From NCBI GenBank assembly GCA_025361735.1, contig JANYKD010000159.1, positions 1 through 42,866 on the forward strand: 42,866 bases of DNA, in the 5' to 3' direction. The DNA comes from Phycisphaerales bacterium (lineage in GTDB: Bacteria; Planctomycetota; Phycisphaerae; Tepidisphaerales; Tepidisphaeraceae). Under the pieces are notes generated by a model. It was not told the DNA's origin, ran no database searches, and was given only the letters and a program-made list of their open reading frames with translations. Position numbers and translations under genes: made by a program. Below, piece after piece: positions 24,514 to 33,118 of this stretch (positions within the stretch are counted from its first letter, which is position 1; the number at the start of each line of letters is the position of its first letter).

Positions 24514-24969
24514 TCACAGCGGAGTCGCCAGCAGCATGGCCGGACTCACGCATTGGACACCTTGATATCGCGCGAAGTCGGACGAGTTGAGCGTCAACAA
24601 CGATCGTATCCCATACGCCGACATGATCGCTACCATGCGCGCATCATGCGCCAGCTTGCCCGCAACATGATATCGCGTCACCAGGGCTCGCCAGACGGCT
24701 GCCATGTCGGGCGGTTCCGACAGGCACGGAATCACGCTCTCGATGCGTTCCAATTCCATCGCCAGGGAAGTTGGCGTAAACCCCAGCCCATTTTGCAGTC
24801 TCGGCCGGGTACAGACAACCCAGAACTCAATCATCGACTGCGCGCACATACACAGGCCGAACCGGTCAACATTCTCCGGTGTGACCGCCGCAATGCAACT
24901 CGCGTGATCTTCGCTGTCTTTATCGAGCAGGCGAATCAAGATGTTTGAGTCGATCAGAATTCCGCCCAT
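24514..24969 (-). CDS. PIN-domain toxin (VapC-like), module 1
   Basis: A 151-residue PIN-domain protein, predicted as the ribonuclease toxin of a toxin-antitoxin pair. Acidic residues expected in PIN active sites are present: Asp7 (ILIDSNILIRLL), Glu48 (QSMIEFWVV), Asp109 (KLAHDARMVA) and Asp131 (TLNSSDFARY). The ATG directly follows the antitoxin stop codon with no gap (GATTGAATG), and GAGG in the antitoxin end can serve as its ribosome-binding site. It is on the minus strand upstream of the plus-strand phoH block. An intact active site argues for a functional toxin. Confidence 0.88.
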   Translation of the reverse strand: MGGILIDSNILIRLLDKDSEDHASCIAAVTPENVDRFGLCMCAQSMIEFWVVCTRPRLQNGLGFTPTSLAMELERIESVIPCLSEPPDMAAVWRALVTRYHVAGKLAHDARMVAIMSAYGIRSLLTLNSSDFARYQGVQCVSPAMLLATPL

Positions 24970-25203
24970 TCAATCCTCGTAGATACCGTCGCGCTGTAAT
25001 GCAGAATCCGGCAGGTTCACCCCTGAGACGGCGTCAACGGCGAGTTGCTGGTGAGCGTTTCTCCGCAGCTCCATTGAAGGCATCGCACGTACAAAGCGAG
25101 GCTGCCTGACATCCAGCGTGAGGATTTCATTGACCGGCAGATCGATCGGTTCCTCGGGCACCAGCACGCGGCCGTCGAACTTCGCTTGGATCGTCGTGGT
25201 CAT
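24970..25203 (-). CDS. Antitoxin (DUF104/AF2212-like) of PIN module 1
   Basis: A 77-residue protein whose first half, MTTTIQAKFDGRVLVPEEPIDLPVNEIL, has the short beta pattern of DUF104/AF2212-like antitoxins (x-I-x-A-x-F-x-G-x-V-x-P-x-E-P-x-D-L). The second half is polar and probably binds the PIN toxin encoded immediately after it. TATAAT ends 6 nt before the ATG and no Shine-Dalgarno sequence is present, so translation is probably leaderless. Confidence 0.75.
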   Translation of the reverse strand: MTTTIQAKFDGRVLVPEEPIDLPVNEILTLDVRQPRFVRAMPSMELRRNAHQQLAVDAVSGVNLPDSALQRDGIYED

Positions 25204-25209
25204 GAGTTG

Positions 25210-25215
25210 ATTATA
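25210..25215 (-). promoter_or_regulatory. TATAAT box 6 nt before an antitoxin ATG (leaderless promoter)
   Basis: On the minus strand the order is TATAAT-caactc-ATG. A start 6-7 nt after the box would fall on the ATG itself. No clear -35 hexamer is visible. Confidence 0.55.
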
Positions 25216-25324
25216 CGACAGGCCCTCGCGGCTCGCTATTCCCTTGAGCTGGTTTACGCCGGGAAGCCGCGTTCAACCATCGTGATTGTCAGCACCTTAT
25301 CGGACCCTCGACACCGCCCCGCCG

Positions 25325-26278
25325 ATGTGGGACAATGATGCCATTGTGCAACTGACCATCACTCTCGAACAACCTGACAAGAAACTCGCCCTCTTCGGCG
25401 CCGCCGACCGGAATCTGAAGATGCTGCGCGAAATGTTTGGCGTACACATCTTCGGCCGGGAATCGGAAGTCCACATCACCGGCGAGAAAGAACAGATCGC
25501 CAGAGTCGTCGCGGTGCTCGATCAGATGCAACGTAAACTGCGACGCCAAGAGTGGTTAAGCGCCGAAGAAGTGGCAACAGCGATGAAGAGCGCGACGGCC
25601 GCGACCGAGAAGCATGATCCCGATGCGATCGACGTCTATACCCGCGGCCACTCGGTGCATCCAAAGACCGCCGGACAAAAGGGTTATGTCGAAGGCATGA
25701 TGAACCATGACCTCTGTTTCTGCATCGGCCCGGCGGGAACGGGAAAGACGTACCTCGCGGTGGCGCTGGCGGCCAATCAACTGAAGCATGGCAAGGTCAA
25801 GCGGATCGTGCTCGCCCGACCGGCCGTGGAGGCCGGGGAGCGGCTCGGGTTCCTGCCGGGAGACTTGCAGGCCAAGGTCAACCCGTATCTGCGGCCGCTG
25901 TTTGATGCCCTGCACGACATGATGGGCTTCGAACAGGTGCAGCGGTTCATGGTCAACGACATCATCGAGGTCATCCCGCTCGCGTTCATGCGCGGGCGAA
26001 CCCTTAATGAATCCGTCATAATCCTCGACGAGGCGCAGAACACGACGCCAGGTCAGATGCTGATGTTTTTGACAAGACTCGGGCATGACTCAAAGATGAT
26101 CGTGACCGGCGACCCCAGCCAGGTGGATCTGCCCGATGATCAGCCAAGCGGGCTCGTGGATGCGATGAACCGGCTGCGCGGAATCAAAGGGATCGCCCTG
26201 GTCGAGTTGGAACGGTCGGATATCGTGCGGCATCGGCTCGTGCAGAATATCGTGAATGCGTATGAGCGGCAGGCGTAG
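25325..26278 (+). CDS. phoH: PhoH-family ATPase (YbeZ-like)
   Basis: A 317-residue P-loop ATPase of the PhoH/YbeZ family, linked to RNA metabolism and ribosome maturation together with YbeY. An N-terminal domain of about 95 residues has a KH-like pattern (LREMFGVHIFGRESEVHITG). Walker A is GPAGTGKT (135-142), Walker B VIILDEAQ (231-238), with the family block RPAVEAGERLGFLPGD between them and a Ser/Thr-Gln-type sensor region (MIVTGDPSQVDLP). The ATG at 25325 is preferred over an upstream TTG; no strong ribosome-binding site is visible. pgpH and ybeY follow, the order known in Firmicutes. The length is typical of the family. Confidence 0.93.
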   Translation: MWDNDAIVQLTITLEQPDKKLALFGAADRNLKMLREMFGVHIFGRESEVHITGEKEQIARVVAVLDQMQRKLRRQEWLSAEEVATAMKSATAATEKHDPDAIDVYTRGHSVHPKTAGQKGYVEGMMNHDLCFCIGPAGTGKTYLAVALAANQLKHGKVKRIVLARPAVEAGERLGFLPGDLQAKVNPYLRPLFDALHDMMGFEQVQRFMVNDIIEVIPLAFMRGRTLNESVIILDEAQNTTPGQMLMFLTRLGHDSKMIVTGDPSQVDLPDDQPSGLVDAMNRLRGIKGIALVELERSDIVRHRLVQNIVNAYERQA

Positions 26279-26310
26279 GGAGGGCGCGGAAGCAAGTCCG
26301 CAGAATGCCC

Positions 26311-26340
26311 TCACCCCGGCCCTCTCCCAGTGGGAGAGGG
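26311..26340. repeat. Widespread GGGAGAGGG-type hairpin repeat
   Basis: CCCTCTCCC-agt-GGGAGAGGG (26320-26340) forms a perfect 9-bp stem, preceded by TCACCCCGG. The sequence belongs to a dispersed intergenic repeat common in many bacterial phyla, whose spurious translation gives SHWERAGVRA-like strings. It sits between phoH and pgpH, 20 bp before the pgpH start. Confidence 0.65.
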
Positions 26341-26359
26341 AGTAAAGAACCAGAGGTTT

Positions 26360-28654
26360 ATGTTTCCGTTTCGAAGAATCAGGCCACGACGGCAACAGGT
26401 CAGGGAAAGCCGGCCGGACCTCGCTCCGGTCTGGCGGTCGATCGGGGGACCGCAGGCAACCTGGGCCATCGGCATCGCCGTCGGCTTCTGGCTGCTCGCC
26501 ATCGGCATCACGTCGCTGCGGGAACAGATGGTGCGGGTGCGGCCCGACCAATATGTGCGTGAAGACGTGACGGCGCGCGTCGAGTTCTACTCGATCGATC
26601 CGGAGCGCGTCCGCGAACTGCGGCTGCAGGCGCGGGAGTCGGCGCCGAGCATCTATCAGGTCGTGCCCAACTGCTTTGATCAGATCCAGCGCATGCTGAC
26701 CGCCCTGCCGGAAGACACGGCGCGGCGCACACCCGAGCAGATGGTCAGGGATCTGCCGGCCGACAGCGGGACCATCGCCGTGCTCAAACGCGTGGCGGCC
26801 GACAAGACGGAACTCGAGACCTATCGGCAGTTGGTGCAGAACTACGTGAGTCTGCTGCGGGACTCGCGGGACAAAGGCGTGCTGGTGGTGCTGCCGGACG
26901 CGCAACGGGACCGGGATATGGCAGTGCCGGAGCGAAAACTGGTGACACTCCTGGGGCCGGCGCATATCACCATCGACCTGCTGGGCACGTTCCCGCGCGT
27001 GCCCGGGAAGAAACCGATCGAGGCACAGCGCGAGGAACTGCTCAAGATCGTCGAGCCCCTGGCCGGGCGGTGTTTCGCGACTCCGCTGTCTGCAAGCGTC
27101 GCGGCGTACACCGTCGACACCATGCCGGCGACACACGAGTATGACACCGCGGCGACGGAGCAGGCGCGCAACGATGCCGAGAAGAATGCGTACCTGGGTT
27201 CGGCGCGCCGGCACTTCACGGAAAAGTCGGTGCTCGTGGAACGGGGCTCGGTGGTTTCGTCACACCAGTGGAAGCTGCTGGCGGCCGAGCAGGACGCATA
27301 CGTCAGCCATCTGGCCGCGCATCGGCCGGGCGGACGGTTGCTGGCGCTGGCGGGCATGGCGGGTGTGATCCTGCTGCTGACGTTGGCCATGTCGGCATAC
27401 GTGGCGGCGTTTGCCCCACGGATTGTCAGGAACAAGTATCGCTGCCTGTCGCTGGCGGCGTTGCTGCTGATCACGCTGCTGGCAGCGCAGCTCACATCGG
27501 TGAGCACGCAGCCGCTGCTGATCTACGCGACGGGGCCAACGCTGCTGGCGGCAATGATCCTGACGATCTCCTACGACCAGCGCGTGGCGCTGGGGATATC
27601 GACTTTGCTCGCGGTGCTGGTGACGGCGGCCGTGGGCCAGGGCGTGGCGTTCCTGCTGACGATCTGGGTGGGCGTGCTGACAGTGACGTTCATGCTGGAT
27701 GAGGTGCGGCGACGCAGCAAGCTCGTGGAAGTGGGCGGTGCCGTGGCGGTGGCGATGGCCCTGACGGCCGGCGCCTGGGGCGCGATGGACATGCAGCCGC
27801 TCGAGGTGATCGTGCGGAGTTCGCTGCAGAGCGCGGCGGCCGGGCTCGGCGCGGGCTTCGTGGTGATGGGCATCCTGCCGCTGATCGAGAAAGCGTTCCG
27901 CGTGACCACGAGCATGACACTCCTGGAGCTGGCGGATGCAAGCCGGCCATTGCTGCGGCGGTTGCAGCTTGAGGCGACGGGCACGTACAGCCACAGCCTG
28001 CAGGTGGCCACGCTGGCCGAGGCCGCGGCCGAGGCGATCGGGGCCAATTCGCTGCTGTGCCGCGTGGGGAGCTACTACCACGACATCGGCAAGATTCACA
28101 AGCCGGACTACTTCATCGAGAACCAGTTTGGCGCGCCGAACAAGCATCTGAACCTCACGCCGACGGTCTCGCTGCTGGTGATCGTGGGACATGTGAAGGA
28201 TGGAATGGAGATGGCGAAGGAGTATCGCCTGCCGGCCATGGTGCAGAACGTGATCGCCCAGCACCACGGCACAACGCTGGTGGAGTTCTTCTACCACAAA
28301 GCCCGCAAGGGCAGCGAGATTCGCGGCGAACAAGTGGACGAATCGCAGTTCCGATATCCCGGGCCAAAGCCCAAGTCGCGCGAAACGGCGATCGTGATGA
28401 TCGCCGATGTGGTGGAGAGCGCCAGCCGCGCCATGACCGACCCGGCGGCCCACCGTATTGAAACGCTGGTCCATGACTTGATCACCAAGCGCCTGCTCGA
28501 CGGCCAGTTTGACGAGTGCGATCTGACGTTCGCGGAGTTGGAGCAGATCGAGAAGGCGATGGTCAAGGCGGTCTTGAGCATGTACCACGGCCGGCTGCCC
28601 TATCCGACGAACAAGCCAGGCGAACAGCCCCGGCCGGCGGTGAAATCGGCGTGA
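26360..28654 (+). CDS. pgpH: 7TM-HD family c-di-AMP phosphodiesterase (PgpH-like)
   Basis: A 764-residue membrane protein with the PgpH domain order: one N-terminal transmembrane helix (about 34-53), an extracytoplasmic 7TMR-HDED domain of about 270 residues, a seven-helix membrane block (about 325-500) and a cytoplasmic HD domain. PgpH hydrolyses the second messenger c-di-AMP, which governs osmotic and cell-wall homeostasis. The HD metal site is intact: His in THSLQVA, His574-Asp575 in YYHDIGKIHKPDYFIENQ, and His-His in AQHHGTTLVEFFYHKA, followed by the conserved ETAIVMIADVVESASRA. The ATG at 26360 (MFPFRRIRPR) follows AGAGG; a GTG 30 nt earlier is less likely. No diadenylate cyclase gene is in the window. 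Identification is confident. Confidence 0.93.
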   Translation: MFPFRRIRPRRQQVRESRPDLAPVWRSIGGPQATWAIGIAVGFWLLAIGITSLREQMVRVRPDQYVREDVTARVEFYSIDPERVRELRLQARESAPSIYQVVPNCFDQIQRMLTALPEDTARRTPEQMVRDLPADSGTIAVLKRVAADKTELETYRQLVQNYVSLLRDSRDKGVLVVLPDAQRDRDMAVPERKLVTLLGPAHITIDLLGTFPRVPGKKPIEAQREELLKIVEPLAGRCFATPLSASVAAYTVDTMPATHEYDTAATEQARNDAEKNAYLGSARRHFTEKSVLVERGSVVSSHQWKLLAAEQDAYVSHLAAHRPGGRLLALAGMAGVILLLTLAMSAYVAAFAPRIVRNKYRCLSLAALLLITLLAAQLTSVSTQPLLIYATGPTLLAAMILTISYDQRVALGISTLLAVLVTAAVGQGVAFLLTIWVGVLTVTFMLDEVRRRSKLVEVGGAVAVAMALTAGAWGAMDMQPLEVIVRSSLQSAAAGLGAGFVVMGILPLIEKAFRVTTSMTLLELADASRPLLRRLQLEATGTYSHSLQVATLAEAAAEAIGANSLLCRVGSYYHDIGKIHKPDYFIENQFGAPNKHLNLTPTVSLLVIVGHVKDGMEMAKEYRLPAMVQNVIAQHHGTTLVEFFYHKARKGSEIRGEQVDESQFRYPGPKPKSRETAIVMIADVVESASRAMTDPAAHRIETLVHDLITKRLLDGQFDECDLTFAELEQIEKAMVKAVLSMYHGRLPYPTNKPGEQPRPAVKSA

Positions 28655-28669
28655 GTTGGGGATCTGCCG

Positions 28670-28675
28670 TATAAT
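28670..28675 (+). promoter_or_regulatory. TATAAT -10 box of VapBC module 2
   Basis: A perfect TATAAT lies 19 nt before the antitoxin ATG, and AAGGAG (28683-28688) falls between them. The pair can therefore be transcribed independently of pgpH and has a conventional leader. No good -35 box is visible. Confidence 0.5.
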
Positions 28676-28694
28676 CGGATTGAAGGAGTTTAGC

Positions 28695-28919
28695 ATGACC
28701 ACAACCGAACTCGACAAGCGTGTGACGACAATCGAGCGTGAGCTTGCCAGCCTGAGAGCCCGGCGGGCGGCTGGCAAAGTCCACCCTGTCCGCGTGATTG
28801 AGGGAATCCACGGTGCGTTCGAGAACGATGACGCGTTTCAGGAAGCAATGCGGCTCGGGCGAAAGTGGCGTAAGACCGAGGGCGGCAATGTCCGCGCTGC
28901 AAAGGCGGGACGAAAGTGA
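28695..28919 (+). CDS. Antitoxin of PIN module 2
   Basis: A 74-residue protein: MTTTELDKRVTTIERELASLRARRA is an amphipathic, coiled-coil-like helix, followed by a basic C-terminal part (LGRKWRKTEGGNVRAAKAGRK). Size, position and a 4-bp GTGA overlap with the PIN toxin gene identify it as the antitoxin. AAGGAG is 6 nt before the ATG. It does not show an obvious AbrB or Phd fold. It lies 40 bp after pgpH and splits the pgpH-ybeY gene order. Confidence 0.7.
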   Translation: MTTTELDKRVTTIERELASLRARRAAGKVHPVRVIEGIHGAFENDDAFQEAMRLGRKWRKTEGGNVRAAKAGRK

Positions 28920-29350
28920 TTCACATCCTCGACACAGACGTACTTACGATAGCGGAACTGCCCGATTCGCCGGAGTACCTGCGTCTGCATTCGCGCATCC
29001 TGCAAGTTGCAAAGGATGACACGGTCGCCACAACGATCGTGACCTACGAAGAGCAGACCCGCGGCTGGCTGGCCTACGCCAGTAAGTCACAGGAGACGGC
29101 ACATCAGGTGAAGGCCTATGCGTATCTGAAACGGCACCTTCAAACCTACGTGAGCCTCGAAGTTCTCGACTTTGATGCCGCTGCCGCACAGGAGTTCAGT
29201 CGCCTGCGGAGCCTCAGACTTCGCGTTGGCACGGCAGATCTCAAGATCGCCGCGATCGCCATTTCGCAAGGTGCGTTGCTTCTGTCGCGAAACCTCAAGG
29301 ACTTCCAAAGAGTTCCCGATCTCCGTGTCGAGGACTGGACCAGGGTGTGA
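28916..29350 (+). CDS. vapC: PIN-domain toxin (VapC), module 2
   Basis: A 144-residue PIN-domain ribonuclease toxin starting at GTG, which overlaps the antitoxin stop by 4 bp (GTGA). Active-site acids are present: Asp6 (MIHILDTDVL), Glu45/46 (VTYEEQTRGW), Asp108 (RVGTADLKIAAIAI) and Asp129 (NLKDFQRVP). The end, LRVEDWT, matches a VapC subfamily common in cyanobacteria and planctomycetes. An intact active site and an adjacent antitoxin suggest a working module inserted into the phoH-pgpH-ybeY neighbourhood. Confidence 0.92.
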   Translation: MIHILDTDVLTIAELPDSPEYLRLHSRILQVAKDDTVATTIVTYEEQTRGWLAYASKSQETAHQVKAYAYLKRHLQTYVSLEVLDFDAAAAQEFSRLRSLRLRVGTADLKIAAIAISQGALLLSRNLKDFQRVPDLRVEDWTRV

Positions 29351-29406
29351 CAGAACGCTGGCCCCGCTTGAATCGGCAGGTCCGTAAGACGTATACAAGC
29401 ACAAAG

Positions 29407-30009
29407 ATGAAAGAACCGATGGCTGAAACACACGAGTTTGAACTGAGCCTCACCGCGGAAGTTGGCGCTGCGTTCGTGCCGTTCCTGAAGAAGCAGTTGC
29501 GAAAGGCCCGGCCGCTGGTGAAGGGACCACTGTCGGAGTTTTCGGTGGCCGTCGTGGGCAATCGCCGGATGGCGGAGCTTCACGACCAGTTCATGAGCAT
29601 TCCCGAACCGACGGACGCGCTGACATTCGAACTGGAACACGACGGACGCGGCCGGGTGACCAGCGGCGAAGTCGTGATCTGTCTGCCGGTGGCAAAACAG
29701 AAGGCCAAGGAACTCGGCCACGAGACCCGAATCGAGCTGCTCCTCTACGCGATACACGGCATGTTGCACCTGTGCGGATTCGACGATAAGAACGAGAAGG
29801 ATTTTCGGAAGATGCACGCGATGGAAGATCGGATACTTGTGGCCCTGGGGTTCGGACCGGTGTTTGCGGCCCAGGTAGAGCCGGTGCCCTCACCGGCTTC
29901 TTCGCGCAGCGCTCCCGCCCCAATGCCAGCGCTACGCCGATCAACCCGTCCCGCTGCAAAGAGACAGACAACGATGCCTGTCGCACGGGGAGGCCGGAAA
30001 TGTTCCTGA
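29407..30009 (+). CDS. ybeY: Endoribonuclease/rRNA maturation factor YbeY with altered metal site
   Basis: A single-strand endoribonuclease acting in 16S rRNA 3'-end maturation and late 30S quality control. The protein is about 200 residues. Family landmarks are FSVAVVGNRRMAELHDQF, EPTDALTFEL, GEVVICLPVAKQKAKE and HGMLHLCGFDDKNE, then MHAMEDRIL. Two zinc ligands, His117 and His121, are kept; the third position of HGxxHxxGxDH is Asp127 instead of His. The last 45 residues are a Pro/Ala/Arg-rich tail not found in typical YbeY, and they overlap the CorC-like start by 10 bp. The ATG at 29407 is chosen; one at 29419 is possible and neither has a strong ribosome-binding site. Confidence 0.88.
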   Translation: MKEPMAETHEFELSLTAEVGAAFVPFLKKQLRKARPLVKGPLSEFSVAVVGNRRMAELHDQFMSIPEPTDALTFELEHDGRGRVTSGEVVICLPVAKQKAKELGHETRIELLLYAIHGMLHLCGFDDKNEKDFRKMHAMEDRILVALGFGPVFAAQVEPVPSPASSRSAPAPMPALRRSTRPAAKRQTTMPVARGGRKCS

Positions 30010-31226
30010 TCGGGCTTACCCTCGCCGGCGTGTGCGCGCTGGGCTTCTCCATTCTCACCTACGCCCTGCGGGACTATTCGCAGGGACGGCTGGAAGACTG
30101 CCTGGCCAGGCGAAAGCGGCCGGACCTCCTTCAGGTCATCGCCGACAATCGGACCGAGTTCATCTTCGTTACGGCCGTTTTCCGGATGGCCGCCACGATC
30201 TTCATCGTGGTTTGCGCGATCAAGCTGGCCGGCTTTTGGGCGGGAATCGTCATTGCCGCCATCCTGTCGCTGGTGTTGTCGATCGCCCTGCCGACCGCCA
30301 TCGCCCAGCACGCCGGCGAGCCGGTCCTGGCGCTGGCGGCGCCGGCGACGAACGCGCTGCGGCGGGGTCTGTGGCCACTCACGGCGATCCTCCACCTCTG
30401 CGAGCGGCTCGTGCAAAAGACACTCGGCGGCTCGGGCGAGCCGGAGCCCGAGCAGATGGAGAAGGATATCCTGTCGGTCGTCGAGGAGGGCGAAAAGGAA
30501 GGCGTGGTCGATACGGCCGAGCGGCGCATGATCGAATCGGTGATCGAGTTCCGCAACCAGGAAGTCGCCCAGAACATGACCGCACGGCCGGAGGTGAAGG
30601 CGATCGAGGTAACGGCCGGTCTGGATGAAGTGCGGCGTATCTTTGAGGAAACCGGGCATTCGCGCCTGCCGGTGTACGACGGCACGCTGGATCATGTGGT
30701 GGGCATTCTGCACGCACGCGATCTGCTGAAGCAGGTGGGGCTGCCCGGCGAGAATTTCGACATGCGGCAGATCATCCGCCCGGCGCTGTTCGTGCCGGAG
30801 ACCAAGCCGCTGAAGGAACTGCTCGTCGAGTTCCGGATGCAGAAGGTGCATATCGCGATCGTGCTCGATGAATACGGCGGCACGGCCGGCGTCGTGACAA
30901 TCGAGGACATCCTGGAAGAACTGGTCGGGGAGATCAGCGACGAACACGAGCCGCAGGAGAAGGCGACGGTCCGCAAGCTCGGGCCGAATTCCTACGACAT
31001 CGACGCCCGGCTGTTCGTGGACGAACTGAACAAATCGCTGAAACTGCGGATTCCCGAGGACTCGGGCGTGGACACGATCGGCGGGTGGGTGTCCAACCAG
31101 CTCGGGCGGATCCCGACAAAGGGGACGGTGTTCGAAAACGCCGGCGTGCGCTTCGAGGTCACCGACGCGGCGCCGCAGATGATCCGGCGCCTGAAGATCG
31201 ACGTGACGGTGCGGGTCGAGGCGTAA
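30000..31226 (+). CDS. CNNM/CorC-family membrane protein (DUF21-CBS-CorC_HlyC)
   Basis: A 408-residue membrane protein of the CorC/TlyC family, linked to Mg2+/Co2+ efflux. Domains in order: DUF21-like membrane region with hydrophobic segments at about 1-22, 55-77 and 81-103; a linker helix with the family signature EEGEKEGVVDTAERRMIESVI; two CBS domains (about 190-245, GHSRLPVYDGTLDHVVGILHARD, and 255-312, HIAIVLDEYGGTAGVVTIEDI); and a CorC_HlyC domain (about 320-405). The membrane part is shorter than in many relatives. GGGGAGG lies about 7 nt before the ATG. It overlaps ybeY by 10 bp, the usual ybeY-corC neighbourhood. Confidence 0.9.
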   Translation: MFLIGLTLAGVCALGFSILTYALRDYSQGRLEDCLARRKRPDLLQVIADNRTEFIFVTAVFRMAATIFIVVCAIKLAGFWAGIVIAAILSLVLSIALPTAIAQHAGEPVLALAAPATNALRRGLWPLTAILHLCERLVQKTLGGSGEPEPEQMEKDILSVVEEGEKEGVVDTAERRMIESVIEFRNQEVAQNMTARPEVKAIEVTAGLDEVRRIFEETGHSRLPVYDGTLDHVVGILHARDLLKQVGLPGENFDMRQIIRPALFVPETKPLKELLVEFRMQKVHIAIVLDEYGGTAGVVTIEDILEELVGEISDEHEPQEKATVRKLGPNSYDIDARLFVDELNKSLKLRIPEDSGVDTIGGWVSNQLGRIPTKGTVFENAGVRFEVTDAAPQMIRRLKIDVTVRVEA

Positions 31227-32530: not shown

Positions 32531-33118
32531 TCATCCTTCAGGATCGGCGAGGAGTATCTCCAGTCTCGCGGCCAAATCCGGCGGATATCGCGCGGGCCAG
32601 GATCCGTCAATGATGCCGACCGAGATCATGTCCTGGAGATGCACCTGGTCCTTGCGGCGGAAGGCCGTCAGTTTGATCTGGACCAGCGCTTCCAGGGAAA
32701 GCACGCGATAGCTGCCCGCTGACTCGGACTGGTCCACGTCGGGGTTGGCGGCCGTTTCGGTGGGCCGGACTTTCTCGTTGGCAAACAGAATATGCACGCC
32801 GTCCCGCGCACCGGCGTTCGTTCCGTCGAGAAAGACATCAACGCCGGCGATGTGTCGATAGATGAACCCGGCCGCTCCGAGCGCCTGTTGCGCTCGCTGC
32901 AAATCCGCACGGCGCAGCAGAATGTCAACATCCTGTGTATTACGCACGGCCCCTTCGTCCACCCGCGAAACCCACAGGGCCACCGCATTGCCACCGGCAA
33001 TCGCGTAAGGCACACGCGCGGTCTCCAGAGCGACCGCCGCACGCAGCAACCGTTGACGAACCTTTTCCACGGCATTCACCATCCGATCCAGCGAAAATGC
33101 GCCGAAGGCAACAGCCAT
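32531..33118 (-). CDS. Nucleotidyltransferase-fold protein (AbiEii-like)
   Basis: A 195-residue protein with the minimal nucleotidyltransferase core: GG at 42-43 (YAIAGGNAVALWV) followed by Asp63-x-Asp65 (TQDVDILLRR), then strand/helix segments and ALVQIKLTAFRRKDQVHLQD. The latter matches the helix after the core in AbiEii/DUF6036-type proteins, whose Lys-x-x-Ala-x-R-x-K-D motif is characteristic. Relatives include toxin-antitoxin toxins that modify tRNA, but no AbiEi-type antitoxin is adjacent, so a solitary role is equally likely. TATAAT ends 7 nt before the ATG without a Shine-Dalgarno site, suggesting a leaderless mRNA. Confidence 0.75.
   Translation of the reverse strand: MAVAFGAFSLDRMVNAVEKVRQRLLRAAVALETARVPYAIAGGNAVALWVSRVDEGAVRNTQDVDILLRRADLQRAQQALGAAGFIYRHIAGVDVFLDGTNAGARDGVHILFANEKVRPTETAANPDVDQSESAGSYRVLSLEALVQIKLTAFRRKDQVHLQDMISVGIIDGSWPARYPPDLAARLEILLADPEG

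Follow-up and report, generated by a model that had tools for sequence, protein, structure and literature searches.

Two predicted type II toxin-antitoxin modules, probably acquired independently, in and beside a conserved phoH-pgpH-ybeY-corC block of a Phycisphaerales bacterium

Firmicutes carry the gene order phoH-pgpH-ybeY, and proteobacteria the order ybeZYX, that is, phoH-ybeY-corC. In Pseudomonas aeruginosa, ybeZ, ybeY, and ybeX are cotranscribed (PMC7327168), while a connection between PhoH proteins and toxin-antitoxin (TA) systems is known from PhoH2, a PIN-PhoH fusion toxin with PhoAT as its antitoxin (PMC4826407). The window analyzed here (a stretch of 42,866 nucleotides, contig JANYKD010000159.1 of assembly GCA_025361735.1) contains the same genes in the same order as both of these arrangements, which are combined in Phycisphaerae as the usual state, but in this genome the block is interrupted by a vapBC pair between pgpH and ybeY (Table 1). 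We assign a probability of roughly 0.88 to the reading that this pair and a further PIN gene with a small partner upstream of phoH are two lineage-specific, independently acquired type II TA modules in and beside an ancestral block. The identities of phoH, pgpH, ybeY, and corC given in a preliminary description of the locus were confirmed by Pfam and NCBIfam.

Table 1. Features of the locus, with positions in the window.
Feature	Position	Strand	Evidence or remark
PIN-domain toxin (VapC-like)	24514-24969	-	Pfam PIN 25.3 bits (cut-off 23.6), E 2.5e-5
Small gene, presumed antitoxin, 77 aa	24970-25203	-	Directly upstream of PIN start, same strand
TATAAT before presumed antitoxin	25210-25215	-	6 nt before ATG, leaderless-type spacing
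phoH	25286-26278	+	Pfam PhoH 304.6 bits, E 4e-91; PhoH1/YbeZ type, no fused PIN domain
pgpH	26330/26360-28654	+	Pfam 7TM-7TMR_HD and HD, NCBIfam HDIG; c-di-AMP phosphodiesterase family
TATAAT, candidate promoter of vapBC	28670-28675	+	19 nt before vapB ATG, AGGAG between
vapB antitoxin, 74 aa	28695-28919	+	Pairing with vapC conserved across 8 aligned loci from other genomes
vapC toxin (predicted PIN RNase)	28916-29350	+	Pfam PIN 28.7 bits, E 2e-6; PDB VapC matches
ybeY endoribonuclease	29407-30009	+	Pfam YbeY 94.3 bits, E 7e-27; start inferred from relatives
corC/CNNM-CBS transporter-like protein	30000-31226	+	Pfam CNNM, CBS, CorC_HlyC

We compared the locus across 61 genomes: its own and those of 60 relatives belonging to its family and class. 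Searches detected PgpH in 60 of the 61 and YbeY in 59, with both present in 58. For 40 of these 58, pgpH and ybeY were adjacent on one strand (domain matches 816-1131 bp apart, median 892), where ybeY mostly began close to the end of pgpH, usually within a few bases; corC followed ybeY in most loci, and phoH preceded pgpH in nearly all loci with flanking sequence. The order phoH-pgpH-ybeY-corC is the ordinary, broadly conserved state in Phycisphaerae, and the merged neighborhood is not the peculiarity that the preliminary description took it to be. A literature search on ybeY, phoH, and pgpH together found nothing. The two genes lay apart in 15 of the 58 genomes, some of them possibly owing to contig breaks, although this cannot hold for all 15 since several separations occur in complete or large contigs. 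Because many relatives have ybeY at a distance from pgpH, its expression does not generally depend on pgpH.

An interruption between pgpH and ybeY was observed in 3 of the 58 genomes: this one (domain matches 1623 bp apart), G002 (1708 bp), and G043 (2640 bp). On reading the open frames, the insert in G002 was a minus-strand glutathione peroxidase-like gene and the one in G043, which runs opposite to pgpH, a membrane glycosyltransferase-like gene, and the junction thus tolerates unrelated insertions. A VapBC pair at this position was seen in this genome only (1 of 61), and phmmer searches for VapC, PIN, or antitoxin homologues of either module found none within the phoH-corC neighborhoods retrieved from relatives. 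These counts bear on the idea of addiction, whereby VapBC would be retained because its loss or recombination harms the cell, with the result that the phoH-pgpH-ybeY block is stabilized. Such a role would fit an intact pair that shares the orientation of pgpH and ybeY and is packed tightly between them, but essential chromosomal genes have no need of it, the block exists without a TA pair at the junction in 40 relatives, and the pair is absent there in all other genomes examined; we consider addiction highly improbable.

The pair itself has several features of a VapBC type II system. vapC begins at a GTG (28916) that gives it a 4-nt overlap with vapB, whose start is the ATG at 28695, so that a small antitoxin gene is paired directly upstream of a gene for a PIN fold with an acidic active site. 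The catalytic residues of VapC (D6, D8, E46, D108, and N126) are intact and were invariant in an alignment of 11 homologues, and its nearest solved relatives in the PDB are VapC toxins (best E 2e-10; 6nkl, 3zvk). With the PIN match over the Pfam cut-off as well, the earlier claim of an intact VapBC between pgpH and ybeY stands. In contrast to the described type II systems, the antitoxin matched no Pfam or NCBIfam model and VapC remained below every NCBIfam VapC cut-off, with tRNA(fMet)-type models nearest, for which reason we predict no RNA target. As for a DNA-binding domain that could serve autoregulation, Pfam gave no match in VapB, and the structure prediction for the protein was all-helical at low confidence (pLDDT 72, pTM 0.31). 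VapB belongs to a widespread antitoxin family that lacks a Pfam or NCBIfam model and is recognizable by a coiled-coil-like N-terminus and a motif near GxFxNDPxxxEAMRLGRxWRxS. PADLOC returned no defense-system match for vapBC or for the upstream PIN module.

That the vapBC stretch was wrongly joined into the block during assembly of this metagenome-assembled genome would be conceivable, as the draft is fragmented (571 contigs, 6.25% contamination). However, the stretch measures 700 bp within a contig of 42.9 kb, the gene ends flanking it are clean, and vapC was not found a second time in the genome, all of which makes an assembly artefact extremely improbable. We found no target-site duplication around vapBC, the longest word shared by the flanks being 7 nt, as expected by chance. 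Third-position GC was 0.67 for vapBC, 0.70 for ybeY, and 0.86 for both pgpH and corC; since the value for vapBC is similar to that of ybeY, composition does not prove a foreign origin.

Homologues of VapC did occur in relatives, at other loci. The Humisphaera genome G015 carries one on contig C455 (residues 1-105, 65% identity), with pgpH on C327 and ybeY on C79; G009 has homologues on C326 and C100 (pgpH on C283, ybeY on C355), and G001 has one on C114 (pgpH on C202). All of these lie outside the phoH-corC block, and a weak homologue in G019 is likewise located away from it. The Humisphaera copy is split into two frames at about codon 105 and is possibly a frameshifted, decaying toxin or an assembly error. 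The Humisphaera metagenome-assembled genome with a related vapC (G443) has a pgpH match equal in coordinates and identity to that of G015, a member of the family, which points to Tepidisphaeraceae in the class Phycisphaerae as the lineage of the window. Beyond the family, Acidobacteriota, Cyanobacteria, and other Planctomycetota also carry homologues; one locus had two copies, a single genome gave up to six VapC matches, and the homologous VapBC pairs elsewhere have other neighbor genes. Homologues of the upstream PIN protein were similarly found at unrelated places in G019 and G007. Homologous TA genes at unrelated loci in relatives are the outcome that the preliminary description had itself named as pointing to chance insertion, and the suggestion that their placement here goes beyond this was not upheld.

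The upstream module was also as first described in that a PIN gene, identified by Pfam, lies on the opposite strand ahead of phoH. Its acidic residues were located by eye, whereas the catalytic positions of VapC come from the alignment of 11 homologues. The protein matched the NCBIfam model Mtu_PIN_fam below the cut-off of that model and had no PDB relatives by sequence search; its presumed antitoxin matched no Pfam or NCBIfam family, and no homologue of this partner gene was found beside the upstream-PIN homologues of G019 and G007. The two modules differ in the models matched, in strand, and in partner genes. In G003, which has the most similar proteins, and in other genomes, open-frame reading placed uppS/cdsA-like proteins upstream of phoH; in this genome they are absent from that position, and the upstream PIN module therefore sits at a break in synteny. 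With PhoH2, the locus shares the theme of a PIN RNase associated with a PhoH ATPase, but here the PIN gene is separate from phoH, is on the opposite strand, and has its own small partner gene. A PhoH2-type TA system was considered and rejected, as Pfam showed no PIN domain fused N-terminally to PhoH: the phoH product matched only PhoH/AAA-type families, and its residues 1-123 gave no PIN match.

The preliminary description had pointed to the bracketing of the block by two RNase toxins. The genome contains 14 PIN matches in 7.5 Mb, for which random placement predicts 0.106 PIN pairs within 4.4 kb, and 1.86 close pairs are expected over the 25 family genomes counted. Two PIN genes within 6.7 kb of a pre-named block would have a probability of 8e-5, a figure to be read in light of the post hoc choice of the block. 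With ~1.9 close pairs expected in the family, the bracketing is within chance for a set of TA-bearing genomes of this kind.

Both modules probably carry their own promoters, as judged from the letters of the DNA. The TATAAT box ascribed to VapBC was found, and since this hexamer occurs only 23 times in 382 kb of the GC-rich genome (both strands), its presence at both modules is more than chance. An ATG followed 6-9 nt after TATAAT at 9 of the 23 sites, and 8 of these 9 opened a reading frame of at least 60 codons, a combination that we interpret as a signature of leaderless transcripts; a literature search on leaderless transcription in planctomycetes yielded nothing relevant. TATAAT positions in the window include 3538, 25210, 28670, 33126, and 36013, with an ATG 6-8 nt downstream at 4 of 6. 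One of these boxes stands 7 nt before the ATG of a small nucleotidyltransferase-like gene (32531-33118, minus strand; PF14907 below cut-off). A sigma-70 scan, which needs a -35 match, flagged neither TA promoter.

For ybeY, similarity to relatives begins at about residue 25-33 of the long reading from GTG 29347, and a start at ATG 29407 or ATG 29419 appears more likely than this GTG. As a ybeY promoter, only a weak candidate was read by eye: TTGAAT-N18-TATACA, which stops 9 nt short of ATG 29407. The YbeY protein has a metal motif (~29755-29815) of the form HGxLHLxG-x-D-D, in which the third ligand is Asp, versus His in solved YbeY structures; Asp was present in 32 of 32 distinct class members scanned, along with a nearly invariant Met-His further along, and the whole class may thus have exchanged a zinc ligand. 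In the phoH/pgpH gap, a palindromic repeat-like element, CCCTCACCCCGGCCCTCTCCCAGTGGGAGAGGGAG, was noted at 26309-26345, and 382 kb of the genome contained three copies resembling it.

No plus-strand terminator-like site was found in the block, including the gap between vapC and ybeY, so that read-through into ybeY is likely. This would permit a functional coupling in which autoregulation by VapC/VapB controls ybeY and ties toxin status to rRNA quality control, given that vapBC transcription can reach the directly downstream ybeY and that PIN-PhoH links exist in the form of PhoH2 (PMC4826407). Against this, the arrangement was seen in only 1 of the 61 genomes, VapBC homologues have other neighbors, ybeY is apart from pgpH in 15 relatives, and this phoH belongs to the PhoH1 type, which lacks a PIN domain; we regard such coupling as improbable. 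A narrower version, in which the VapB-VapC promoter took over ybeY in this lineage and the TA state tunes the level of an rRNA-maturation RNase, seems quite improbable too. Among the options of mere insertion, addiction, and functional coupling that had been left side by side, mere insertion is favored by the junctions without VapBC in relatives and by the homologues elsewhere, and the other two found no support.

The placement of vapBC and of the upstream PIN module is thus most likely chance insertion rather than functional partnership. The starting point would be an ancestral block with the order phoH-pgpH-ybeY-corC, which is common in Phycisphaerae. In this lineage, a promoter-bearing VapBC module would have entered the pgpH/ybeY spacer and left pgpH and ybeY intact; a second, unrelated PIN module lies on the other strand ahead of phoH, at a point where the block has lost its usual synteny. 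VapC, as a predicted PIN-domain RNase with putative toxin activity, would be kept inactive by VapB, independent of the operon around the pair, and transcripts of ybeY would probably come from read-through of vapBC, from a weak promoter of its own, or from both. Overall, the locus illustrates how housekeeping genes can stay unbroken when a small TA module with its own promoter settles between them, and it cautions against reading function into neighborhoods known from one genome.
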